A stretch of 36,121 nt of DNA from Anaerolineales bacterium (lineage in GTDB: Bacteria; Chloroflexota; Anaerolineae; Anaerolineales; Villigracilaceae), in contig JAGVAO010000214.1 of the NCBI GenBank assembly GCA_020060235.1, positions 1 to 36,121 of the forward strand. Direction: 5' to 3'. Position 1 is the first letter of the stretch. Each line of letters begins with the position of its first letter. Both the position numbers and the translations under genes were made by a program. The notes under the pieces are model-generated. The model was given only the letters and a program-made list of their open reading frames with translations, made no database searches and had not been told where the DNA came from. Positions 3,825 to 26,230 of this stretch are shown here, piece after piece.

Positions 3825-6410
3825 TTATCCTAATCCATATTGCATGGGCGGCGGCAGTTGCACACCGGCGCGGGCGTAGTCGCACAGGGTTTGGTAGACC
3901 AGTTCCTTTAGTTCGTGGTCGTCGCTGAAGTGGGCGCGATACAGTTCGGCAATAATGCCCTCGGAGGGCGTCTGGCGCAGGTAGGACAATGCGGCGCGCT
4001 GCTCGTCGTAATTTTCGCCCTTGAAGGCCAGAAGGAGCATGTCGGTGGCAATCTGGCCGGGGCTGATGCCCATGCCCTGCTTGCCGGCAAATTCAATCAG
4101 CCAGGGCGTTTCGGCGGGCGGGGTCAGGCGGCGTGGAATGCGCGGGTCAGGGCGCGAACGGCTGTCGAGCAGTTCGACGGCCACATTGCGGACGACCCAT
4201 TGTGTGTCTTCAACCTGGGTTTTCTCGAGCAATTCGAGCGCCCAGTCTTCGGGGATGCGCGCCAGGCCGTAGGCGATGGCGCGGCGCATCAGGATGTCGT
4301 CACTGTTGATGCCCTCGCGCAAGGCTTCGCGGCCTTCGGAGAGGTCGTTGGCGAGCGATTCAGCAGCGGCGCGGCGCAGGTCTTCGTCCCCTTGCAGCAG
4401 GGCAGACGCGACCGCCTCGAGGGCCGGTGGTGTGCCGATGGCCACCAGCGCCAGGCAGGCGGCGCGTTGGGCCGGGCCGATGGTCTGGGTCAGAACGCGG
4501 GTCAGCCCTTCGACGGCCTTGGCATCGCGCATGATTCCCAACCCGAGGCAGGCCATCAGGCGCAGTTCGTCAGACGGCGAGAGCAGCAACTGCCTGAACA
4601 GCGCGCCCATGTTCGGGTCGCCGTTGAGCGCAAAGGCCGCCGCCACCTGTCCGCGCAGGGCCAGCGGGTTATCGCTGTTTTGCAAAATTTCGACCAGCCC
4701 GGCAATCAGGCTGTTGCGCCAGGGCGCATTGCGCGGGGTGTCACGCAGGGTTCGCGCCGCAGTCAGTTGCGGGCGCATTAAGATTGGGTCAGATTCGGCC
4801 AGCAGGCTCTGGATGAGCGGCGTGGCATCGCTGAAAGCGGCCAGGTAGCGCATCACCTGGGTGCGTCCGCTCCAGGCAGGCTGGCTCAAGATGGGTTCTG
4901 CCGCGCCTGGCCCGCGCAGTCCTTGTCCGGCCAGGTACGCGCCAAAAACGGGATGGCTGAAACGCATCCGGTTTTTGGCGTGGCTGGTCAGCAAGCCGCT
5001 GGCGCTTAAATTTCCGGTGATGGATTGGGGCGCTGTGCTGGCCGGGGCGGGACTCTTCTTCCTGTCCTTTTCTCCGGGCTGTAAAGCCTCCGCCGCGGGA
5101 ACGGACTCCTCCGCGCCTGTCTCGCTGTCTTCGGGGGTTTCCTCCACCGCCGGGGCGCTGGCAGCCTCTTCGGCCAGTGGCAGGTCGAAAGACTTGACCC
5201 ACTCCCTGGCCTGGTTGTTGTCGAAGGCGGCAATCCCGTTCAGGCTGGCCTGGGCGCCGAGCACTTGCAGGGCCTCGAGCGGGATTTTTGCGGTAGCCAG
5301 CCGGCGGATGTGGGCTTCGATGGCGTCCAGCGGGCGCGGGCCGCGCACATCACCGGCATAGCCCGCCCAGAGTTTTAGGGTCAGTTCGAGCGGGGTTAGT
5401 CCAAAATTATCGGCGGCCAGCCAGCGTTGCAGGAGCAGGTTGTCCACATCGGGAGCGGTTTGCGCCCAGGTTTCGTTTTTGACGTATTTGAGCCAGAGTT
5501 CATCCCACTTGCGCATGAATTCGTCCTGCTTTTGCGCATCCCAGGGCAGGACGGCAAGCGGCCTGAAACCGAGTTGTAGCAACCCATCGATGTACTCGTC
5601 AGACCCGGCGGCCATGACACGGATTTTTGGATAAGCGCGCAACAACAGGCGCAGATAGCCTGAAACTTCCTGCACGCCGCTCTGGGGCAATTCGTCCAGG
5701 CCGTCGAGCAGCAGTAAGGCGCGTCCGGTCTGGAAGGCGTATTTCACAAATTCGGGCATGCGCGTTGCATCCAGAACGGATGCACGGCTGGATTGGTGGT
5801 CGATGATGGGACTGAGCAGGTCTTCCGGCTTCTTGGGTTCTGCGATGGGCAATCCCAGGTCGAGGGCGTGCAGCAGGAAGGGAATGGCCTCATGTAAAGT
5901 CCCTGCGCCGGGCAGGCGGTTGACAACCTGGCTGGCGAGGTAGGCCAGGGCGGTGGTTTTTCCCGCGCCCGGCTGCCCGGTCAGGACGATGTTCGCGCCG
6001 CCATCCAGTGCTTCGGCCAGCCCCAGACTTGGCGCGCCGTAGAAAGCGCCCACTTCGGGCCAGTCGGGCATATAAGGAATGCTTTGCTCGACAATTTCTT
6101 CATGGTGGGGCGCCATTCCCGGCTCGATTTGGGCAGGCGGGGCCAGCAGCCTCGGCTCGACCATGATTTCCTCCAGCGAAAACAGGGATGCGGCAATGTG
6201 CATCTCCTGCGTCTGGCGGTAGACGATTTTCCGGTGGCTGTCCTCGATACCAGAACTGGCACGTAGTTTGGCTTCCTCGCGCTGTTGCTTCAATGCCTCG
6301 ATGGCGTTGCGCAGGCTGGGCCGCAGCGATGCCAGGATGGCCCAAAAGATTGTGGCGACAATCGCGCCAATCCAGAACGAGAGCATGTCGATGCTGGGCA
6401 GACGGTTCAT
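3825..6410 (-). CDS. Membrane-anchored NACHT-type ATPase with C-terminal HEAT-like repeats
   Basis: An 861-residue protein. Residues 9-29 (SFWIGAIVATIFWAILASL region) form one transmembrane helix, followed by a basic/coiled linker. Then comes a P-loop NTPase domain with Walker A GQPGAGKTT (145-153) and Walker B LLLLDGLDEL (232-241), the form typical of NACHT/STAND ATPases. A Pro/Glu/Ala-rich low-complexity linker (about 405-450) is followed by a C-terminal array of HEAT-like helical repeats (about 540-861: LRLMACLGLGIM, ACLALVAIGTPPALEAVASALL, AAAESLAND). No nuclease, TIR or protease domain is visible. The gene lies 9 bases after the zinc-ribbon gene and 1 base before ssnA. STAND proteins act as ligand-triggered switches; what this one senses is unknown. 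Confidence 0.85.
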   Translation of the reverse strand: MNRLPSIDMLSFWIGAIVATIFWAILASLRPSLRNAIEALKQQREEAKLRASSGIEDSHRKIVYRQTQEMHIAASLFSLEEIMVEPRLLAPPAQIEPGMAPHHEEIVEQSIPYMPDWPEVGAFYGAPSLGLAEALDGGANIVLTGQPGAGKTTALAYLASQVVNRLPGAGTLHEAIPFLLHALDLGLPIAEPKKPEDLLSPIIDHQSSRASVLDATRMPEFVKYAFQTGRALLLLDGLDELPQSGVQEVSGYLRLLLRAYPKIRVMAAGSDEYIDGLLQLGFRPLAVLPWDAQKQDEFMRKWDELWLKYVKNETWAQTAPDVDNLLLQRWLAADNFGLTPLELTLKLWAGYAGDVRGPRPLDAIEAHIRRLATAKIPLEALQVLGAQASLNGIAAFDNNQAREWVKSFDLPLAEEAASAPAVEETPEDSETGAEESVPAAEALQPGEKDRKKSPAPASTAPQSITGNLSASGLLTSHAKNRMRFSHPVFGAYLAGQGLRGPGAAEPILSQPAWSGRTQVMRYLAAFSDATPLIQSLLAESDPILMRPQLTAARTLRDTPRNAPWRNSLIAGLVEILQNSDNPLALRGQVAAAFALNGDPNMGALFRQLLLSPSDELRLMACLGLGIMRDAKAVEGLTRVLTQTIGPAQRAACLALVAIGTPPALEAVASALLQGDEDLRRAAAESLANDLSEGREALREGINSDDILMRRAIAYGLARIPEDWALELLEKTQVEDTQWVVRNVAVELLDSRSRPDPRIPRRLTPPAETPWLIEFAGKQGMGISPGQIATDMLLLAFKGENYDEQRAALSYLRQTPSEGIIAELYRAHFSDDHELKELVYQTLCDYARAGVQLPPPMQYGLG

Positions 6411-9583: not shown

Positions 9584-9606
9584 AGGTTCGATTCTCTCGC
9601 GTAATT

Positions 9607-11190
9607 TCAGGCAGTTGGGGAGTATAACATAATCGTTTTGACCCGGTTTGCAATTCGGAGCGCGAGCGCGGCGATGGTCAGGGTCGGGTTTGCCATACCG
9701 GAAGTCGGGAAAGTTGAACTGCTGGCAATATATAAATTATGCACGCCATGCACGCAACAATGCTCGTCTACAACACCCTGCTGGGGGTCCCTGTGCATTC
9801 GCGTGGCACCCATGTGATGCTTGGATGGTGTTATCGAAACCGGCCAGCCTTCCTCGTCGAGGTCGTGGTTGATGGGGCGAATCGGCAGACCGATGCGAGT
9901 CAGCCCTTCGAACAGGGCTTTGCGAAGCCGATGATAACTGTCCAAATCTTGCGTTGAAAGTTTCCAGCGAACGACCAGGCGGGGGATACCGAGAAAGTCT
10001 CGTTTGTCGTCCGAGAGCGTCAGGCGGCTTTCGGGATTGGGAACACACTCCAACTGCATCTGTAGTCCGTAATGGGGCTTATCTTTTCTTTGAAACAAAC
10101 CGCTTTTTATGGCCGGTAAAAGTTTTCGGCTGTTGGACAGCGCTTGAACGAGATATTCCGCTGCCCTAAGGCTTGGCGGCGCGGCATGATGGATGATTTC
10201 CGACAGGCGGATGACATCCTGCATCTCTTTTGAGTAGAACAGGTCGTCGGTTTTGTGGGCGGCGCGCCGGACGAAAAAGCCGCAGCCATTTAGCAGCCTG
10301 TGTTCTTGCCTGTGCGCGGATGTCAGCCCTGCGGCCAACACATTGCCGAGATTTTTCTGCTCGATTGAATAATCCAGCTTGAACAATTCTCTTGGCTGGT
10401 GGGCGGGGATGTCGTCGATGTGCGCATCGAACAGGCTGACGTGTTCCATGAAATAGCGGCCAAGCAGGTCGTTTTGATTCCCTATCCCATTTTTTTGAAC
10501 ATCGCGCGAGGCCAGCATCAGGCGGGGTGTTTCCAGCCCTCCCAGGGCAAGGATGAAGAACCTGGCCCTGACAGAAAATCGTTTCCTAAAAAGGGTGGTA
10601 CAGCGCACACTATCAACCTGGCTGCCATCGTTGTTTAACTGAATATGCAGGGCTGTTGCGTTTAGAAGCACTTGCAGGTTGGACGACTGTTTTATTTCAG
10701 CGCGATATTTTTCGCCGAATTTGGTTGGCGGGCTGAAGGAAAATTTCTTTAGTTCAAGCCCGCTTTCCATGTCTCGAAGATTCGGCGTGTAGTCGTAATT
10801 GTCGATTTCAAATAAACGATTGGCTTGTTCATAAAAGGGCCGCAATTCAGCCGCAGAAATAGGCCAGCCGCTGTGCGGAATCCAATCGCGTTCTTCAAAA
10901 TCATCCCTGTCGAGCGGATGGCAGCGCCCAAACCAAGTAGCCGTGCTGCCGCCAAATTGCCTGCGGCGGGTAAATTCGGGGGATGTATACCAGCGCCCTT
11001 CAACCACCCCGCGATAGAGAAACTGGGCATGGTGGTTAAAATCCAGCCCGCCGCTTTCAAGCAGGATGACTTTGATATCGGCATTCAAAAACTCGCGGGC
11101 TGCGGCAATCCCTGCCGCCCCGGCACCGATAATGCAAAGGTCGGCTTCGATGATTTGTTGGGATGTAAGATTCTGCGCGTTAATGAGCAT
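9607..11190 (-). CDS. GMC-family FAD-dependent oxidoreductase
   Basis: A 527-residue flavoprotein. The N-terminal ADLCIIGAGAAGIAAAREF (about 16-34) has the FAD-binding GxGxxG, and ILLESGG follows as the ribose-binding strand. FGGSTATWFGRCHPLD corresponds to the GMC signature region. The C-terminal HHMGATRM, LYIASSSTFPTSGMANPT and TIAALALRIA hold the conserved His and Asn of the GMC active site. Substrate is probably an alcohol or sugar, not determined. It is divergent from the glycan operon and shares its promoter region, so a role in making or modifying that glycan is plausible. No good Shine-Dalgarno precedes the ATG. Confidence 0.9.
   Translation of the reverse strand: MLINAQNLTSQQIIEADLCIIGAGAAGIAAAREFLNADIKVILLESGGLDFNHHAQFLYRGVVEGRWYTSPEFTRRRQFGGSTATWFGRCHPLDRDDFEERDWIPHSGWPISAAELRPFYEQANRLFEIDNYDYTPNLRDMESGLELKKFSFSPPTKFGEKYRAEIKQSSNLQVLLNATALHIQLNNDGSQVDSVRCTTLFRKRFSVRARFFILALGGLETPRLMLASRDVQKNGIGNQNDLLGRYFMEHVSLFDAHIDDIPAHQPRELFKLDYSIEQKNLGNVLAAGLTSAHRQEHRLLNGCGFFVRRAAHKTDDLFYSKEMQDVIRLSEIIHHAAPPSLRAAEYLVQALSNSRKLLPAIKSGLFQRKDKPHYGLQMQLECVPNPESRLTLSDDKRDFLGIPRLVVRWKLSTQDLDSYHRLRKALFEGLTRIGLPIRPINHDLDEEGWPVSITPSKHHMGATRMHRDPQQGVVDEHCCVHGVHNLYIASSSTFPTSGMANPTLTIAALALRIANRVKTIMLYSPTA
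9621..9629 (-). promoter_or_regulatory. Extended -10 promoter for ctaA
   Basis: The minus strand reads TGTTATACT, a TGn extended -10 followed by TATACT. It lies about 40 bases upstream of the ctaA start and within the last codons of the GMC gene. The same TGnTATACT form recurs at 33218-33226 and 33277-33285. Confidence 0.5.
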
Positions 11191-11199
11191 GGTTTTCGC

Positions 11200-11228
11200 T
11201 TGGGGGTTTGGAGTATCCTAATTATAAT
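11200..11228. promoter_or_regulatory. Shared divergent promoter with self-complementary -10 (ATTATAAT)
   Basis: ATTATAAT (11221-11228) is its own reverse complement, giving TATAAT on both strands. On the plus strand it is preceded by TTGGGG (11200-11205) with a 17-base spacer and lies 10 bases before the GT4 ATG, leaving a very short leader. On the minus strand it lies 30 bases before the GMC ATG, with only a weak -35. Confidence 0.55.
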
Positions 11229-11238
11229 CAGCCATCGT

Positions 11239-12414
11239 ATGAGTAGAAAGCTAAAAGTCGCTGTTGTTGCAGCCTGTCCGTTTCCTTACGCGCGCGGCAC
11301 GCCAATCCGAATTTTGAGAATGTCGGAAGCCCTGTCCGCGCGCGGGCACGAGGTTCATGTTGTTACCTATCACCTGGGCCAGAAATTGGACAGCCTTCCC
11401 TTCCAGGTGCATCGCATTCCCAATGTGCCAACTTACCGAAAGGTTTCTCCCGGCCCGACCTATCAAAAAATCGCCATTTTGGACATCCTGCTTGCCAAAA
11501 AACTGCTTGATTTGGCCCGGCAGGTTGATTTTGATATTATCCATGCCCATCACTTCGAGGGATTGCTGGTTGGCCTGCCGGTTGCGCGCCTGAAACGCAT
11601 CCCGATTGTTTTTGATGTGCACACCCTGCTGTCTTCTGAACTTCCGCATTATTCGATGGGCCTTTCGGCGCGAACTTTGCGCTGGTTGGGCAACCTGATA
11701 GACCGCCGCCTTCCGCGCCGCGCCGACCATATTGTATCGGTCACCAACCTGATTCGGGAAAAACTTATCAGCGAAATCGGTATCGACCCTAGAAAAATCA
11801 CCACTGTTTATGGTGGGGTTGAACTGGCGCATTTTTCTACTGCCCGGGCTGTCCCTGCGCAGGATATAATTTCTCCGGTGCTGGTATATACGGGCAACCT
11901 GGCTCCTTACCAGGGGATAGACCTGATGCTTCGGGCCTTTCGAAAAGTTTTGGACAAGCGCCCGGATGCTAAGTTGAAGATTGTTACACATTCTTCGATG
12001 GAACCTTACCGTGACCTGGTCTCGGCTCTCGAACTTCGAGGGCAACTGACCGTCACAGACGCGGATTATTTCGAAATCCCCGACCACCTGTATTCGGCCA
12101 GCATTGCGCTCAACCCGCGAGTCTATTGCGATGGTTTGCCACTCAAGTTGTTGAATTATATGGCGACGGGCCGCCCGATTGTATCCTTTGAAGGTTCAGC
12201 CGAGGCGCTGGAGCATGAACGCAGCGGGCTGGTTGTTTCCAATGGGGATGTAGACGGATTTGCCCGCGCGGTTTTGCGCCTTTTGGACGACCCGGAATTT
12301 GCCGGGATGCTGGGACAAAATGCGCAATCCGTGGTTCAGGAATTTTTTGTCTGGGAGAATTCGATTCGCTTGCTGGAAACAATTTACGACTCCCTGCTGT
12401 CGAGCCGCGTATGA
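11239..12414 (+). CDS. Glycosyltransferase family 4 (GT-B fold)
   Basis: A 391-residue enzyme. The acceptor half begins KVAVVAACPFPYARGTPIR with a Gly-rich loop, and HAHHFEGLL is the usual conserved His segment. The donor half contains LVYTGNLAPYQGIDLMLRAF and GLPLKLLNYMATGRPIVSFEG, with the E-containing loop GSAEALEHERSGLVV, as in retaining GT4 enzymes that use nucleotide sugars. The reading frame is open further upstream, but the ATG at 11239 matches the family N-terminus and follows a -10 box. It has no Shine-Dalgarno. It is first of five overlapping genes for a surface glycan. Confidence 0.9.
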   Translation: MSRKLKVAVVAACPFPYARGTPIRILRMSEALSARGHEVHVVTYHLGQKLDSLPFQVHRIPNVPTYRKVSPGPTYQKIAILDILLAKKLLDLARQVDFDIIHAHHFEGLLVGLPVARLKRIPIVFDVHTLLSSELPHYSMGLSARTLRWLGNLIDRRLPRRADHIVSVTNLIREKLISEIGIDPRKITTVYGGVELAHFSTARAVPAQDIISPVLVYTGNLAPYQGIDLMLRAFRKVLDKRPDAKLKIVTHSSMEPYRDLVSALELRGQLTVTDADYFEIPDHLYSASIALNPRVYCDGLPLKLLNYMATGRPIVSFEGSAEALEHERSGLVVSNGDVDGFARAVLRLLDDPEFAGMLGQNAQSVVQEFFVWENSIRLLETIYDSLLSSRV

Positions 12415-13313
12415 TGCCGAACTTCATTATCATTGGCGCGCCGCGCGCGGGAACGACATCTTTGTACCATTACTTGCGCCAGCATCCGCAGGTTGGCATG
12501 AGCCGCATCAAGGAAACAAATTATTTCGCTTATCTTGCCTCGTGCGCTGAGCCAGGTTATGAAACAGGGCCAACCACCCTGTGGCCGGTAAAAAGCCTTG
12601 CGGAATATGAAGCCTTGTTCCAGGCTGGCGAATATGCCGCGCTAGGGGAGGCATCTCCCCTGTATTTTTTTGCCCCCGGGGTTGCGCGGCAAATTAAGGC
12701 GCATCTGCCCGATGCGAGGCTGGTTATGATATTGAGGAATCCTGTCGAGCGCGCTTATTCCGCCTATTTGAAAAACCGCCGTGAGGGAACTGAGTCGCGC
12801 GCTTTCGAAGACAGGATAACAAGGGAGATACACCACCCGGAAGAAGTTGTTTGCAGCGAGCATTATTACCTGCGAGCCGGGATGTATTTCCGGCGCATTA
12901 CCGATTATTTGCAGTATTTTGAATCATCCAAACTGAAAATCGTTTTTCAGGATGACCTTCAAGACGACCCGGCTGGGCTGATGAGTGAACTGTTCGCATT
13001 TCTGGGCGTTGATTCCGGCTTCGTGCCCGATATGTCGGTGCGCTTCAATCAGTCCTTGCCGCCGTTGCTGGTCAAAAATCCGCGCAGCAAGCGCCTTTTG
13101 AAGGAAATTACCCGGCGAGTCAGGGAATTTATTCCGCGCAAGGTATATTATTCCCTGCTGAATTTCGAGTATTCGATGAACAAGAATCTGCCCGGTTATT
13201 CACCGCTGGACAAACAAACCCGGTTACTATTGCTGGCGCAATACAGGCAGGACATTTTAAACCTTCAAGATTTTCTTGGCAGAGACCTATCCCATTGGCT
13301 GGCGGCGGAATGA
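12411..13313 (+). CDS. PAPS-dependent sulfotransferase
   Basis: A 300-residue cytoplasmic sulfotransferase-fold protein. The 5'-phosphosulfate loop is IIGAPRAGTTSLYHYL (7-22). The 3'-phosphate motif is RLVMILRNPVERAYSAY, with the conserved Arg and Ser. Family members transfer sulfate from PAPS to carbohydrate or lipid hydroxyls. The start overlaps the GT4 stop (ATGA; a second ATG follows three bases on), and its own end overlaps the next GT in the same way. This tight coupling to glycosyltransferases points to a sulfated glycan or glycolipid. No PAPS synthesis gene is in the window. Confidence 0.88.
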   Translation: MMPNFIIIGAPRAGTTSLYHYLRQHPQVGMSRIKETNYFAYLASCAEPGYETGPTTLWPVKSLAEYEALFQAGEYAALGEASPLYFFAPGVARQIKAHLPDARLVMILRNPVERAYSAYLKNRREGTESRAFEDRITREIHHPEEVVCSEHYYLRAGMYFRRITDYLQYFESSKLKIVFQDDLQDDPAGLMSELFAFLGVDSGFVPDMSVRFNQSLPPLLVKNPRSKRLLKEITRRVREFIPRKVYYSLLNFEYSMNKNLPGYSPLDKQTRLLLLAQYRQDILNLQDFLGRDLSHWLAAE

Positions 13314-14368
13314 CGATTAGCGCGGTGCTCGTGAATTTTAATAGTGGCGATACGATATTGCAGGCCATTCAATCCCTCATCGAGCAGGGGGATGTTTGGG
13401 ATGAAATCGCTGTCGTGGACAACGGCTCCTCGGACGGGAGCAGCCTTGAGGTTGAGCGGTGTTACCCTTTTGTGCGGATAATAGCCCTGGGTGAAAATCA
13501 GGGCCTGTCGCGGGCGCGCAACGCCGGGTTGGCGGCTATCCAAAGTGACCATGTACTCTTTGTTGATGACGATGTTTACCTGTCCCCCGGCAGTTTGAAG
13601 AAAATGATGGGCGCTCTCGCAGAAACCGGCGCATCGGTGGTTTGTCCGCGTGTGCTTTTGCATCCCGAAAGCGATATTGTCCAATGCGACGGCGCGGGCA
13701 TTCACTTTATGGGGGTTCTGTCGATGCGCCACCCGTTCAAGCCGGCGGCGTCCACGCTGGCAGAGCGGGTGATGACTTCGGGTTTCATCGGCGCGTGCAT
13801 GCTTTTCGACGCAAAACTGCTTCGCAGCCTGGGCGGGTTCGACGAAGACTATTTTTTCTATTTTGAAGACTTGGAACTGTCTTATCGCATGACTACCCTG
13901 GGGTATAAAATATGCTGCGAACCCGGTGCGACGGTCTTGCACGAGCGCGGAAGCGGCACGGAAAACCTGTCGTTTCGTGGAAAAGGCGCATATCCTGCGC
14001 GGCGAGCCTATTTCACCCTCCGCCATCGCTGGTTGACGATAGCGCTTCACTATCAATTGCGGACGCTACTCTTGCTATTGCCAGCCTTTGCGCTGTACGA
14101 GTTTGCCGCTTTTGTGGAAGTTTTGCGCCGGGGCTGGGTAAGGGAATATTTTGGCGCAGTCTTCTCTCTTGCCAGGCTTGCGCCCTCTGTTTTAAAAAAG
14201 AGGGCGCGTTGGCAGTTGGCAAGAAAGGTTTTTGACCGGGATATTTTATCCGCTGGCCCGTTGCCCTTTTCTCGCGGCTTTGTCGAAGACGGCGGGAAGA
14301 AAAAATTGGTGGTTGTGCTTGATGCTTTACTGAATTTTTATTGGGAAAAGATAAAAAGATGGCTGTAG
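13310..14368 (+). CDS. Glycosyltransferase family 2 (rhamnosyltransferase-like)
   Basis: A 352-residue GT-A enzyme. AVLVNFNSGDTILQAIQSL opens the nucleotide-binding fold, followed by VVDNGSSDGS (36-44), SRARNAGL and the DxD-type VDDD (85-88), the metal/nucleotide-sugar site. FYFEDLELSYRM is the usual C-terminal acid motif of this branch. Residues about 245-270 (LLLLLPAFALYEFAAF) are hydrophobic and may tether it to the membrane. An upstream TTG is in frame, but the ATG overlapping the sulfotransferase stop (ATGA) is the natural start. It overlaps the next GT by 10 bases. Confidence 0.88.
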   Translation: MTISAVLVNFNSGDTILQAIQSLIEQGDVWDEIAVVDNGSSDGSSLEVERCYPFVRIIALGENQGLSRARNAGLAAIQSDHVLFVDDDVYLSPGSLKKMMGALAETGASVVCPRVLLHPESDIVQCDGAGIHFMGVLSMRHPFKPAASTLAERVMTSGFIGACMLFDAKLLRSLGGFDEDYFFYFEDLELSYRMTTLGYKICCEPGATVLHERGSGTENLSFRGKGAYPARRAYFTLRHRWLTIALHYQLRTLLLLLPAFALYEFAAFVEVLRRGWVREYFGAVFSLARLAPSVLKKRARWQLARKVFDRDILSAGPLPFSRGFVEDGGKKKLVVVLDALLNFYWEKIKRWL

Positions 14369-15255
14369 AATTGTCTATCATCGTGCCATGTCGTGGACAT
14401 GCCGCCGAACTGGAAGTTTGCCTAGCCAGCCTGATATCGCAAAACACTTCGGTGCGATATGAAGTGCTGGTGGTTTATTGCCGCCAGGAGTTGGATGTGG
14501 ACGCTGTCGTCAGGAAGTTCCCGTCCGTATCGCCGGTTGCGTCGGAAATTTTTCTTCTCGCGGGTGAAGCGCGCAATGAAGGCGCACGGCGCGCCCAGGC
14601 TGACTATCTCGCTTTCATCGATGCCGATTGTTGGGTCGACCCCAACTGGGTGACGTTTGCTTTCGAGGCGATGCAGGCAGGTGTTTTATTGTGCGGCGGC
14701 GCAATTCTCGATTTGCATCCATGGGATTGGGTGGCCTCTACCGATAATCGCCTGCAATTTGCGGATTTTCCGCCGGGGCGCCCTTATGGGATGACGGCCT
14801 ACATGCCTGGTGGGAACGTTGCGGTTCGCAAGGACGCTTTTTTTGCCCTGGGAAGTTTTAGCAACCATCCCGTTGCCCAGGATGTCGTTTTCACCATGAC
14901 CGCTGCCCAGCGCTGGCCCGAAAAAACAATATTTAACCCCAAAATGCAGGTGCGCCACTTTGGGCGTTCTGCTTGGAAAGATTTTTTATCCCACCAGAGA
15001 GCCTTTGGGTTTACCCGCGCTGCGCAACAAATTCAGATTAGCCGAACGATGGCCTGGATTTCCAGGTATCGCTGGCTCGGGTGGCTCATTTTCCTGCGGA
15101 GATTGGCTTATATAACCCTGAGGGTTTTGCAGTGGAATTTGCGCGACCTGCCCCGTTACCTGTTGCAAATCCCATTCATACTGGCAGGTTTATGGTTTTG
15201 GGTGACAGGTTTTTATGATGGCATGCAGGAAAGAAAACAGGAGATTGAACGATGA
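14359..15255 (+). CDS. Glycosyltransferase family 2
   Basis: A 298-residue GT-A enzyme. VELSIIVPCRGHAAELEVCL leads into the fold, GEARNEGARRAQADYLAF and IDAD (87-90) give the DxD site, and MPGGNVAVRKDAF is the family loop near the acceptor site. The C-terminus (about 232-290) has hydrophobic segments suggesting membrane attachment. The first-strand region VVYCRQELD is diverged from the usual VVDxxS. The ATG at 14359 is inside the end of the previous gene, and the stop overlaps the next gene as ATGA. Confidence 0.87.
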   Translation: MAVELSIIVPCRGHAAELEVCLASLISQNTSVRYEVLVVYCRQELDVDAVVRKFPSVSPVASEIFLLAGEARNEGARRAQADYLAFIDADCWVDPNWVTFAFEAMQAGVLLCGGAILDLHPWDWVASTDNRLQFADFPPGRPYGMTAYMPGGNVAVRKDAFFALGSFSNHPVAQDVVFTMTAAQRWPEKTIFNPKMQVRHFGRSAWKDFLSHQRAFGFTRAAQQIQISRTMAWISRYRWLGWLIFLRRLAYITLRVLQWNLRDLPRYLLQIPFILAGLWFWVTGFYDGMQERKQEIER

Positions 15256-16799
15256 AAAAAGTTTTCGCAATCGTGTTGGATGCCGCCGACCCTGACCTGA
15301 TTGAAAAATGGGCTGACGATGGCAGCCTGCCCAACCTGAAGCGTTTGCACGAGCGGGGCGCTTATGGCAGGCTTACTTCTGTGGCGGAGAATCTTCTTGA
15401 ATCTGTTCCGTACACCTTTTTTTCTGGCCGCAACCCGGCCTCGCACGGGGCGCAGGGATATGCCACCTGGCACGCGGAGAGCATGACCTTCCGGCCTCCC
15501 GGCCCCGACTGGCTGCCTCTCGTCCCGTTTTGGCGTTCTTTTCCTGATAACGGCCCGCGCTCGATAGTACTGGATGTATCCAACATCTACCCGCTGATGC
15601 CGTTTAACGGAATCGAAATTGTCGGCTGGGCTTCGCATGACTCCTTGCAGCCTTTTGGCGCTTACCCGCCAGAACTTGCCGGGCAAATTGACAAAAAATA
15701 TGGCTCTGGCTTGCTGCCCGACGAATTTTACGGCCTGCTTACCAGGCAAGAATTCCTGAAAGACCGCGACCTGATATTCGATATCACTCGTAAGTTCACC
15801 GCCCTGTGCGCAGAACTGATGGCAACAGAAAGATGGGAATTTTTCCTGGCTTTTACCCAGGCCCTGCACCATGCGGGCCACCGGCTTTGGAGCACCGTCA
15901 ATGTGACCGAGCCGCTGACTGACGAACAACAGCGCGAAATGGGCGCGGCCTTGCGCCAGGCATATATCGAAGCAGATAAAATGGTCGGCAAACTGGCCGA
16001 ATCTGTTGGTCCCGAAACGACCCTGCTTGTGTTTTCGTTGCATGGCATGGGCGTCAACCGCAGTCGAATATGGATTTTGCCGGAAATGCTGCGACTGATT
16101 TTGGAGAAAGACACTGCAAAATCGCAGACCAATCGCCTGCTTGAATGGCTGCGCGGACTAGTCCCCGCCCGCTGGCGGCATGAAATTAAGTCGAGGTTGC
16201 CGTATGCGTTTCGCCGCAACCTGACCCGTTTCTGGCGTGGTGGGTACGATTGGCAGAAAACCCGCGCTTTCGCCTTACTGTCCGACTCTGGCGGTTGGAT
16301 TCGCGTCAACCTGAAGGGCCGCGAGGCGCAGGGCATCGTAGAGCCAAAGGACTACGAAGCCATATTGCAGGAAATCAGCCAGGGCTTGCAAAGTTTTGTG
16401 GATGAAGATACCGGTCAGCCGGTCGTCAAGGATGTCTTGCGAACCAGCCAGTTATTATCGGGTGAGAACCTGCACCGCCTGCCCGATTTGATTGTCCCCT
16501 GGGCCGATACCCCGGCCTGCGCGCACCGGGCAGTCGTCTCGCCGAAATTTGGGCGCGTTGCCTGGCCGACGCCCGGAAGCAATCCGGAAGGGCGCAGCGG
16601 CAACCACAACCCGTATGGATTCCTGCTGGCTTGCGGCCCCGACATCGCTCCCGGCCCGGTGACCGGCGCAGACATTCTCGACCTGGCCCCGACCATCTTA
16701 ACCCTCCTCGGCCAGCCCATCCCCGGAGAGATGGAAGGCAAGGTTATCCAATTCCCGGCCAGGGATAAGAGCGCGAATCCCGGCCAGGATTTTGCTTGA
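15252..16799 (+). CDS. Alkaline-phosphatase-superfamily protein (phosphodiesterase/sulfatase-like)
   Basis: A 515-residue protein of the type I phosphodiesterase/nucleotide pyrophosphatase clan. Seen are an N-terminal metal-site strand FAIVLDAADPDLIEKW (D10, D13), a likely nucleophile region SVPYTFFSGRNPASHG (51-66), HHAGH (206-210), FSLHGMG (261-267) and NHNPYGFLLACGP near the C-terminus. The usual DHG metal motif is LHG here. This may be a subfamily trait or may mean altered metal binding. No signal peptide is visible, so it probably acts in the cytoplasm. As last gene of the GT/sulfotransferase operon, it may act on a phosphorylated or sulfated glycan intermediate. Confidence 0.82.
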   Translation: MKKVFAIVLDAADPDLIEKWADDGSLPNLKRLHERGAYGRLTSVAENLLESVPYTFFSGRNPASHGAQGYATWHAESMTFRPPGPDWLPLVPFWRSFPDNGPRSIVLDVSNIYPLMPFNGIEIVGWASHDSLQPFGAYPPELAGQIDKKYGSGLLPDEFYGLLTRQEFLKDRDLIFDITRKFTALCAELMATERWEFFLAFTQALHHAGHRLWSTVNVTEPLTDEQQREMGAALRQAYIEADKMVGKLAESVGPETTLLVFSLHGMGVNRSRIWILPEMLRLILEKDTAKSQTNRLLEWLRGLVPARWRHEIKSRLPYAFRRNLTRFWRGGYDWQKTRAFALLSDSGGWIRVNLKGREAQGIVEPKDYEAILQEISQGLQSFVDEDTGQPVVKDVLRTSQLLSGENLHRLPDLIVPWADTPACAHRAVVSPKFGRVAWPTPGSNPEGRSGNHNPYGFLLACGPDIAPGPVTGADILDLAPTILTLLGQPIPGEMEGKVIQFPARDKSANPGQDFA

Positions 16800-16824
16800 C
16801 AGTTCTGCCTGCCGCCGCTATAAT
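16796..16824 (+). promoter_or_regulatory. Perfect sigma-70-type promoter for rpmF-fabD
   Basis: TTGACA (16796-16801), a 17-base spacer, then TATAAT (16819-16824): exact consensus at both boxes and ideal spacing. The -35 overlaps the stop codon of the preceding gene. The expected start site is near 16831, giving a leader of about 47 bases with a TAAGGAG ribosome site before the rpmF ATG. Confidence 0.9.
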
Positions 16825-16877: not shown

Positions 16878-17069
16878 ATGCCCCCACAACCGAAACGCAA
16901 AATTTCCAAGGGACGCCGTGACCGCCGTCGCGCCCATGACGCCCTTGAAGCCCGCAACCTGACCGCCTGCCCGAACTGCGGACAAATGCGCCTGCCGCAT
17001 ACCGTTTGTTCGAACTGTGGTCACTACAAGGGCCGCGAAGTTGTTGCCGTCGAACAAGAAAAGAAATAA
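16878..17069 (+). CDS. rpmF: 50S ribosomal protein L32
   Basis: A 63-residue basic protein with the typical start PPQPKRKISKGRRDRRRAH and a four-Cys zinc site, CPNC then CSNC. It is part of the large ribosomal subunit. TTAAGGAG lies before the ATG. As in many bacteria it is followed by a fatty-acid synthesis gene (fabD). Confidence 0.97.
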   Translation: MPPQPKRKISKGRRDRRRAHDALEARNLTACPNCGQMRLPHTVCSNCGHYKGREVVAVEQEKK

Positions 17070-24718: not shown

Positions 24719-26230
24719 ATGTTTAAAATCAACCTTCCTAAATTTCAAATTACTCCACCTGCGATGGAGCATCTTTGGCTTGTTCTTCCTCTGGCCATTA
24801 GTTTCATCGCCCTTAATATGACCCCACTAAAAGAGGGTGATTTATGGTGGCATATAAAAGTTGGAGAGCAGGCCTTGCGCGAAATGCAAGTGCCACGTTT
24901 TGACGAGTTTACTTTTACTGCTTTCCAGTCGGAATATTTATTCAGCTACAGTTGGTTGAGCGCTGTCTGCTTTTATGTAGTTTATAAGCTGTTTGGATTA
25001 TCCGGGTTGGTGTTGGTTCAGGCATTGACGGGCACAACAATTTTTGCTCTGTTGTTGCGTGAATGTGTGCGTCAAGGGGTGGCGCCATCTTTTTCTGCTG
25101 TTTTGACATTGTTCTGTTTTTTGGGATATTATTCTTTTGGCTCTATAAGGTCGCAAATTTTCTCGTTTTTATTCTTTTGCCTGTTCTTTTTGTTGTGTCG
25201 TAATTATTTAACGCAAGGACAAAATCGCTTATGGTTATTGCCAGTTGTAATGATTGCCTGGATAAATTCTCACGGGGCCTGGGTCATAGGGATTGTTCTG
25301 TTAGGAATTTTTCTGGGAAGTTTGTTGTTGGAGCGGTGGTGGAATCCTACTCTTGAGCTTTCATTACGCCCAATGCTCGTATGGATGGCTGTAACCCTGT
25401 TGGTTCTGCCGCTCAACCCGGAAGGGTTGATGGTCTATCGCAGTGTAGTAGCGATTGGCAGTAACTCAATTGTTCAGCAATTTATAAGCGAGTGGCAACC
25501 TCTTGTAATCACAAATAGTGTTTCATGGCCTTTTTTGGGCTTGCTCGGATTATGGATTTTTGGGTTGGCGCATACGGAGCGGCGACCTCGCATCTACGAA
25601 CTTTTCCTAATGTTGGTTTTTGCTATTTTAACGCTGCGTTACTTACGTATGATGCCGTTTTTTTTAATCCTGGCGGCCCCAATTGTCGCAGAAACCGTTG
25701 GGAATCTTCGATGGGATGAATTACATAGGCGACTCTCCGGCTTTCTACATTCCGGGGCTAACACTTCTAACCCGGTTAACGCGTTTGCAAACAGCATATT
25801 TCTTGTTGCTCTGCTTGGGGGAATGATAGGCAGCCTCCCATGGGTTCATCTATCGGTCCTGGGAAAACCAACATCCAGCTTAATTAGCTCGTATTTTCCA
25901 GTGGAAGCAATTAGCAAGTTACCTGCTCGTCCGACGCGAGTTTTTAGTTTGCCTGAATGGGGAGGCTACATCACCTTTTCACTTCATCCGCCAACAACCA
26001 TTTTTGCAGACGGAAGGGCGGAGTTACTCCCGCATGCAATTTGGGATGATTACCTTACCATTGCTACAACTAGCACTGGTTGGGACGAATTGTTGGAGCG
26101 GTATCAAGTTGATACCTTGATACTCAGTAAGGCGCGGCAGGGGGCATTGATAGTTGCCGCTCGTCATAGCGGCTGGATAAGCATTGCGGAGGATGATGTG
26201 GCTGTGGTTTTGCGTAAGGAGCCGGAATAA
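24719..26230 (+). CDS. Polytopic membrane protein with DLWWHI motif, function unknown
   Basis: A 503-residue protein with about ten hydrophobic segments between residues 20 and 390, then a soluble C-terminal tail of about 110 residues (VFSLPEWGGYITF, IFADGRAELLPH, LERYQVDTLILSK). The first loop has GDLWWHIKVGEQAL. An acidic residue there, between the first two helices, resembles the catalytic loop of GT-C glycosyltransferases, but no other GT-C motif is clear. Codons are visibly richer in TTA/TTT/ATT than in neighbours, suggesting recent transfer. It stands alone, bounded by imperfect direct repeats and followed by a strong terminator. ATG at 24764 (MEHLWLVL) is an alternative start. Confidence 0.75.
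   Translation: MFKINLPKFQITPPAMEHLWLVLPLAISFIALNMTPLKEGDLWWHIKVGEQALREMQVPRFDEFTFTAFQSEYLFSYSWLSAVCFYVVYKLFGLSGLVLVQALTGTTIFALLLRECVRQGVAPSFSAVLTLFCFLGYYSFGSIRSQIFSFLFFCLFFLLCRNYLTQGQNRLWLLPVVMIAWINSHGAWVIGIVLLGIFLGSLLLERWWNPTLELSLRPMLVWMAVTLLVLPLNPEGLMVYRSVVAIGSNSIVQQFISEWQPLVITNSVSWPFLGLLGLWIFGLAHTERRPRIYELFLMLVFAILTLRYLRMMPFFLILAAPIVAETVGNLRWDELHRRLSGFLHSGANTSNPVNAFANSIFLVALLGGMIGSLPWVHLSVLGKPTSSLISSYFPVEAISKLPARPTRVFSLPEWGGYITFSLHPPTTIFADGRAELLPHAIWDDYLTIATTSTGWDELLERYQVDTLILSKARQGALIVAARHSGWISIAEDDVAVVLRKEPE

Follow-up and report, generated by a model that had tools for sequence, protein, structure and literature searches.

In this study we analysed a stretch of 36,121 nucleotides (below, the window) from an Anaerolineales bacterium of the family Villigracilaceae, which is contig C28 (JAGVAO010000214.1) of a 3.99-Mb assembly of 279 contigs (GCA_020060235.1, 96.9% complete). 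Six adjacent genes in the window encode a GMC-family oxidoreductase, a GT4 glycosyltransferase, a sulfotransferase, two GT2 glycosyltransferases (GT2a and GT2b) and a protein of the alkaline phosphatase (AlkP) superfamily. This cluster is a real, conserved and horizontally moving cassette for glycan assembly, and its most interesting part is the AlkP protein, the active site of which has been rebuilt.

Gene order and insertion site of the cassette

The cluster was first described from the letters of the window alone (the sequence-only reading), as overlapping GT4, sulfotransferase, GT2, GT2 and AlkP genes accompanied by a divergent GMC gene. The coordinates were confirmed, as were the families of all six genes, by Pfam matches above curated cut-offs (Table 1). 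With the likely ATG starts, the plus-strand genes overlap successively by 4, 4, 10 and 4 bp, and 48 bp separate the GMC start codon from that of GT4, which is read in the opposite direction. Short gene overlaps are common in operons.

The core of GMC, GT4, GT2a, GT2b and AlkP genes is also complete in four other genomes (G516, G377, G469 and G1008, the last from another family). In G022 it is split: one contig end carries GT4-GT2a, and another carries AlkP and GMC in the same direction. Because the core set recurs in order in the four genomes, and in split form in the fifth, the cluster is more than a chance assembly, and the worry raised at the outset, that its order might be conserved nowhere, falls away. 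In the window, G516 and G377 the GMC gene is divergent from the GT4-(sulfotransferase)-GT2a-GT2b-AlkP row; in G469 and G1008 the GT4-GT2a-GT2b-AlkP row is unchanged and the GMC gene stands tail-to-tail with AlkP. Since the GMC gene stays with the others in three different layouts (pointing away from GT4, facing AlkP tail-to-tail, or following AlkP in the same direction), it is a true member of the cluster. The core proteins are 33-65% identical to the window copies in G516, G377, G469 and G022 (GMC and AlkP in the case of G022) and 37-45% identical in G1008; for GT4 the values are 42-64% in the four other cluster genomes of the family and 43% in G1008. For each core gene compared, the copies of the window genome and G516 are closer to one another than any other two, and yet these genomes belong to different genera; their AlkP proteins are sisters in the tree described below (support 100/99).

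AlkP orthologues were found in six of 152 genomes of the family (the window genome, G516 with two copies, G377, G521, G022 and G469), with an additional match of 28% identity in G510. GT4 orthologues were likewise present in six (the window genome, G516, G377, G022, G469 and G017). Five genomes are common to both sets, and the GT4 of G017 is a lone copy of 45% identity outside any such cluster. A profile of the cluster-type AlkP scored at least 496 bits in six of 400 evenly drawn genomes of the order (the window genome, G377, G516, G469, G521 and G1008) and 259.5 bits in G948. Among 400 genomes of the phylum it scored above 800 bits in two (the window genome and G377), the next best score being 261.5 bits. 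No homologue with a known product was found.

The cluster forms a 7.2-kb islet between ctaA and rpmF-fabD, and its insertion at this position can be read directly from two genomes of the same genus, G001 and G002, in which the site is empty and ctaA directly adjoins rpmF-fabD. On the right-hand side, homology restarts at position 16782 in comparison to G001 and at 16792 in comparison to G002, that is, at the perfect sigma-70 consensus promoter of the host rpmF gene (TTGACA-17-TATAAT), and the AlkP stop codon (16797-16799) is inside the -35 hexamer of this promoter. A third genome of the genus, G003, carries different genes downstream of ctaA, and for G004 the comparison covered its short locus only. 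The GC content of the islet is 0.538, against 0.602 and 0.572 in the flanks, and its third-position GC (GC3) is below that of most flanking genes, with trkA and one unannotated flanking gene also low. No common word of 8 or more bases was found between the stretches compared at both islet edges.

The active site of the AlkP protein

A match to the AlkP superfamily at 1e-20 was present in 153 of 396 drawn genomes of the bacterial class, and several of these genes adjoin glycosyltransferase genes. Our alignment consisted of 57 de-duplicated rows that match the window AlkP; it is a top-scoring subset of the matching genomes, and a length above 400 aa was required for part of the rows. The tree was built from 56 of the rows (>430 aa, with the G521 fragment excluded), and the AlkP proteins of G1008 and G948 were compared by eye, outside all column counts.

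In the nucleophile column the window AlkP has Leu49 and the other five cluster proteins have N, A, A, P and V, so none of the six carries Ser or Thr, whereas Ser or Thr is found in all 45 comparison rows with a residue there. This column was tied to structures of phosphonoacetate hydrolases, which have Thr in 3szy and Ala in 3t02. Position 206 is His in 6/6 cluster proteins and Asp in 48/48 other relatives. Position 263, the Asp of the SDHG motif in all 48 others, is occupied by L, L, A, M, M, T and F in the seven cluster proteins. Asp10, His210, His264 and His452 are kept in the cluster proteins wherever a residue is present, and His210 and His452 are universal, where present, across the alignment. 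Thus, the two-metal ligand set D, D, H, D, H, H is incomplete in the window AlkP: D10, H210, H264 and H452 remain, while 206 is His and 263 is Leu. Two proteins from outside such clusters, in G357 and G734, share His206, His210 and His452 and have lost His264; the tree unites them and the cluster proteins in a single branch of eight rows (support 100/100), which we call the tri-His clade. By eye, the same pattern was seen in the AlkP of G1008.

In a study of NPP3 (PMC6052110), the ligands D168, T206, D326, H330, D373, H374 and H483 are called strictly conserved; Zn2 is described as assisting deprotonation of the nucleophilic Thr, and Zn1 is believed to hold the water that attacks in the second step. 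Judged by the order of motifs, His206, His210 and His452 would match D326, H330 and H483 of NPP3, and the damaged half of the site would match D168, T206, D373 and H374. As the nucleophile and one ligand Asp are lost and another Asp is replaced by His, the ordinary covalent mechanism of the superfamily is very unlikely for the cluster AlkP. The same substitutions speak against the proposal that the last enzyme trims a phosphate or sulfate group in the ordinary way. What these residues leave for the protein would be one of two roles, a single-metal enzyme or a binding protein.

One possibility of some weight is that the proteins of this clade are active enzymes that dispense with the covalent Ser/Thr mechanism and with the second metal, and that would use a single metal in the three-His site to act on a glycan or its precursor, the target perhaps being the sugar that the GMC enzyme has oxidised. 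Alternatively, and this too is a possibility of some weight, the AlkP protein may be a pseudoenzyme without catalytic activity, which would bind the glycan or serve as a scaffold for the glycosyltransferases in an otherwise ordinary oligosaccharide operon. The pseudoenzyme would explain why the nucleophile column lacks Ser or Thr in six of six cluster proteins and why a metal-ligand Asp is gone from seven of seven. However, Asp10, His206, His210, His264 and His452 do not vary, and nor do many charged residues, in a set of six sequences with 34-56% identity to the first. Moreover, Asp206 was replaced specifically by another metal ligand, and the three site-1 histidines persist in G357 and G734, which is unlike relaxed decay. 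Because the histidines are invariant among sequences so diverged, a working metal site is the favoured prediction.

A scan for named AlkP loci returned three distant loci of 25-26% identity, all with the canonical residues, and no relative was found in the viral contigs scanned with the AlkP profile. A hydropathy scan of the AlkP protein revealed no hydrophobic segment of membrane-helix length. In our literature searches no paper was found that assigns a role to AlkP-superfamily proteins of this class. We also noticed canonical AlkP-superfamily genes in tandem, with four consecutive copies in G227 and three near one another in G201 (L068 3676-10812, L067 6616-12970). G516 has what looks like the remains of a third AlkP gene (L081 8981-9372), downstream of the two intact copies and a methyltransferase gene.

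Flippase, sulfotransferase and the proposed pathway

A Wzx-type gene lies beside the cluster in four of the five complete loci, the window being the exception. The flippase (PF01943/PF13440) adjoins the GMC gene in G377 and G516, and in G469 and G1008 it comes after a membrane protein of 677/678 aa. Because of this linkage a lipid-linked, flipped unit is favoured, and the idea of a pathway without flippase, to which the window copy had given rise, is not supported. The 677/678-aa membrane protein (L083 6960-8996; L128 13969-16002) is 52% identical between its two copies and matches no family above cut-off; a sub-threshold DUF2298 match was obtained for the G1008 copy (L128) only, and the protein is possibly a GT-C-type transferase. 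In the window itself, the sequence-only reading was right that no flippase, polymerase or 3'-phosphoadenosine-5'-phosphosulfate (PAPS) genes are nearby: none occurs among the 20 Pfam-scanned genes (genes beyond 26230, before 891 and at 1732-2490 being outside the scan). No polymerase, co-polymerase or initiating transferase was found in the islet or the scanned flanking genes; such genes sit at a separate locus, G000:C166, of the window genome.

The flippase also bears on a rival reading that we regard as unlikely, in which the direct acceptor of the sugars is not a polyprenyl carrier but a membrane lipid such as diacylglycerol or an inositol lipid. The GT4 is distantly like PimA, PimB-type and MGlcDAG-synthase enzymes, with NCBIfam-type scores far below curated cut-offs, and the lack of an initiating phosphoglycosyltransferase in the cluster would agree with a membrane-lipid acceptor; however, the GT4 is equally like the GT4 enzymes of exopolysaccharide (EPS) and thiol pathways, and a Wzx-type flippase beside most complete loci fits a polyprenyl-linked unit.

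The sulfotransferase gene is located between GT4 and GT2a in two of six loci with a readable junction, the window and G516 (56% identity), and is absent from this junction in G377, G469, G1008 and G022. Sulfation is therefore facultative, a local option and not the essence of the cassette. Most simply, the gene was gained once in a common ancestor of the window and G516 copies, or was lost elsewhere. At E 1e-40, five of the 152 family genomes have a match to the sulfotransferase; the relatives in G520, G484 and G482 are 34-38% identical and lie at other loci, where no match to GMC, GT4 or AlkP was found at E 1e-4. The nearest solved relatives are 3rnl and the heparan sulfate 3-OST/NDST enzymes, and because of this proximity a sugar acceptor fits the protein. 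Its segments GAPRAGTTS, KETNYF and LRNPVERAYS, which we take to be PAPS-binding, align with 3rnl and are kept in G516, and the assignment as a PAPS-type carbohydrate sulfotransferase is credible. The window genome has five PF13469 matches, four of them above cut-off, and it encodes PAPS synthesis outside the cluster, as a fused ATP-sulfurylase/adenosine 5'-phosphosulfate (APS) kinase at G000:C144.

That a sulfated surface glycan is the defining product, with the AlkP protein as a phosphatase or sulfatase, as first proposed, now seems improbable. The G516 orthologue at the same position and the PAPS synthesis encoded in the genome would suit this proposal, but the gene is missing from four of the six junctions and the AlkP protein lacks the residues of the known mechanism; from their gene content, clusters without the sulfotransferase are suggested to make the same core glycan. 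What does stand of the earlier interpretation is a compact glycan-assembly operon, probably working on a carrier.

The best solved relatives of the GMC protein are fructose dehydrogenase, FAD-glucose dehydrogenase and pyranose oxidase. Its GxGxxG-type motif, a His (in KHHxG) and an Asn (in NPTLT) are kept in 5/5 aligned orthologues; the His and the Asn are presumably the catalytic residues, and the enzyme is probably cytoplasmic. The DDD motif of GT2a is kept in 5/5 aligned orthologues, and the DxD motif of GT2b in 4/4. In GT4, the segment corresponding to KLLNYMA of the window protein has Asn in 5/5 aligned orthologues; in many GT4 enzymes the second Glu of the EX7E motif is found at that segment. 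Mycofactocin biosynthesis (MftF/MftG) was rejected as an identity for these genes, with 80 bits for GT2a and 73.8 bits for GT2b against an NCBIfam cut-off of 280, and 46.3 bits for GMC against 387.45.

Taken together, we find it likely that the cassette directs the assembly of a lipid-linked oligosaccharide with sugar oxidation, optional sulfation, a step by the tri-His AlkP protein and then flipping. At the cytoplasmic face of the membrane, about three sugars would be added by GT4, GT2a and GT2b to an acceptor made elsewhere, giving a short lipid-linked oligosaccharide. A sugar hydroxyl would be oxidised by the GMC enzyme and, in the window genome and G516, sulfate would be added by the PAPS-dependent sulfotransferase. 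The soluble AlkP protein would act further on the glycan or an activated precursor without a covalent nucleophile; its site probably contains one metal, coordinated by His206, His210 and His452. Export would be performed by the cluster-adjacent Wzx-type flippase in the relatives and by another flippase in the window genome. The gene content, the conserved order, the facultative sulfotransferase, the flippase linkage in the relatives, the insertion at ctaA/rpmF and the substituted AlkP residues are observations; which substrate is used, how many sugars are added and on which lipid, in what order, and that catalysis needs one metal, we infer.

Several points weigh against this pathway. The cluster has no known product, acceptor or initiating phosphoglycosyltransferase. 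The G377 flippase has no match in the window genome at E 0.001. As the islet itself also lacks a flippase, export in the window genome is unexplained; PF13440 matches in this genome lie on C108 and C171 only. No flippase was seen in the stretches of G022 that were read. In the tree, the proteins of G357 and G734, which belong to the tri-His clade without lying in such a cluster, are on long branches. Finally, the AlphaFold model of the AlkP protein, made from a 4-row alignment, is poor (mean predicted local distance difference test, pLDDT, 53.4) and low around the active site; a Foldseek search with this model gave NPP and PhnA as top matches at E ~1e-7, with TM-scores by query of at most 0.43 among the matches listed.

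Known systems and neighbouring genes

The cassette is similar to Wzx/Wzy-dependent clusters in that several glycosyltransferases and modifying enzymes would assemble a unit and that the loci of the relatives have an adjacent Wzx-type flippase. It differs from them in having only three glycosyltransferases and no polymerase, co-polymerase or initiating transferase, in having the GMC oxidase and the tri-His AlkP, and, for the window copy, in lacking a flippase. The synechan (xss) cluster of Synechocystis also unites sulfotransferase and glycosyltransferase genes; according to its description (PMC8205485), xss comprises eight glycosyltransferases, two sulfotransferases, Wzx, Wzy and a polysaccharide co-polymerase, and no mention of a GMC enzyme or an alkaline phosphatase was found in the main text of that paper. 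The AlkP protein resembles the NPP/phosphonoacetate hydrolase family (PF01663) in its profile match, in the N-terminal Asp and the three His of the family and, as far as the poor model allows, in its NPP/PhnA Foldseek matches, and is unlike it in lacking the Ser/Thr nucleophile and the SDHG Asp and in having His for one ligand Asp. The window sulfotransferase shares the three aligned segments with 3rnl, and only one orthologue in a matching cluster (G516) was found among the 152 family genomes.

Two other glycan-related loci were noticed in the window genome. At C144 (L033 6529-10354), the ATP-sulfurylase/APS-kinase fusion is beside a GT4 gene and an FkbM methyltransferase gene. The locus at C166 (L029/L030) contains two PF13469 sulfotransferases, an O-antigen-ligase/Wzy_C protein, a Wzz/tyrosine-kinase-like protein and a PF02397 initiating transferase. 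To the knowledge of the synechan authors (PMC8205485), a bacterial EPS cluster with two sulfotransferases had not been found elsewhere.

The identified genes in the flanks of the islet are ctaA, a gene for a beta-lactamase-family protein, fabD, trkA, trkH and an energy-coupling factor (ECF) transporter set. The longest open reading frame (ORF) of fabD overlaps rpmF. The window also encodes a NACHT-like NTPase with HEAT repeats (3825-6410) and a 503-aa ORF (24719-26230) that has the lowest GC content of the genes measured (0.452) and no Pfam match at 1e-5. An Rfam scan of the window gave zero matches.

Table 1. Coordinates of the islet, its genes and the adjoining host features in the window
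Feature	Coordinates	Strand	Evidence and remarks
Inserted islet (outer limits)	9584-16791		Left edge 9584 to ~9631; right edge ~16781-16791
GMC-family FAD oxidoreductase, sugar-oxidase/dehydrogenase type	9607-11190	-	PF05199 76.4 bits (cut-off 24.6); PF00732 27.5 bits (cut-off 23)
GT4 glycosyltransferase	11239-12414	+	PF13439, PF13692 and PF00534 above cut-off
Predicted PAPS-type carbohydrate sulfotransferase, facultative member	12411-13313	+	PF13469 64.5 bits (cut-off 27); PF00685 54.2 bits, above cut-off
GT2 glycosyltransferase a (GT2a)	13310-14368	+	PF00535 93.7 bits; ATG at 13310, longest ORF from 13295
GT2 glycosyltransferase b (GT2b)	14359-15255	+	PF00535 56.5 bits; ATG at 14359, longest ORF from 14341
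AlkP-superfamily protein, nucleophile-less tri-His clade	15252-16799	+	PF01663 66.3 bits (cut-off 23)
Sigma-70 consensus promoter of host rpmF	16796-16824	+	Homology with the empty sites restarts here
rpmF (ribosomal protein L32)	16878-17069	+	PF01783; between AlkP and fabD

The islet shows that a mobile glycan cassette has gained or lost sulfation, and the empty site is at hand for comparison. If the AlkP proteins are indeed active, they would represent a new way in which the AlkP fold transfers or cleaves groups of glycans or glycan precursors. The existence of a clade with a rebuilt active site, locked in one glycan operon, makes catalysis without a nucleophile directly testable.

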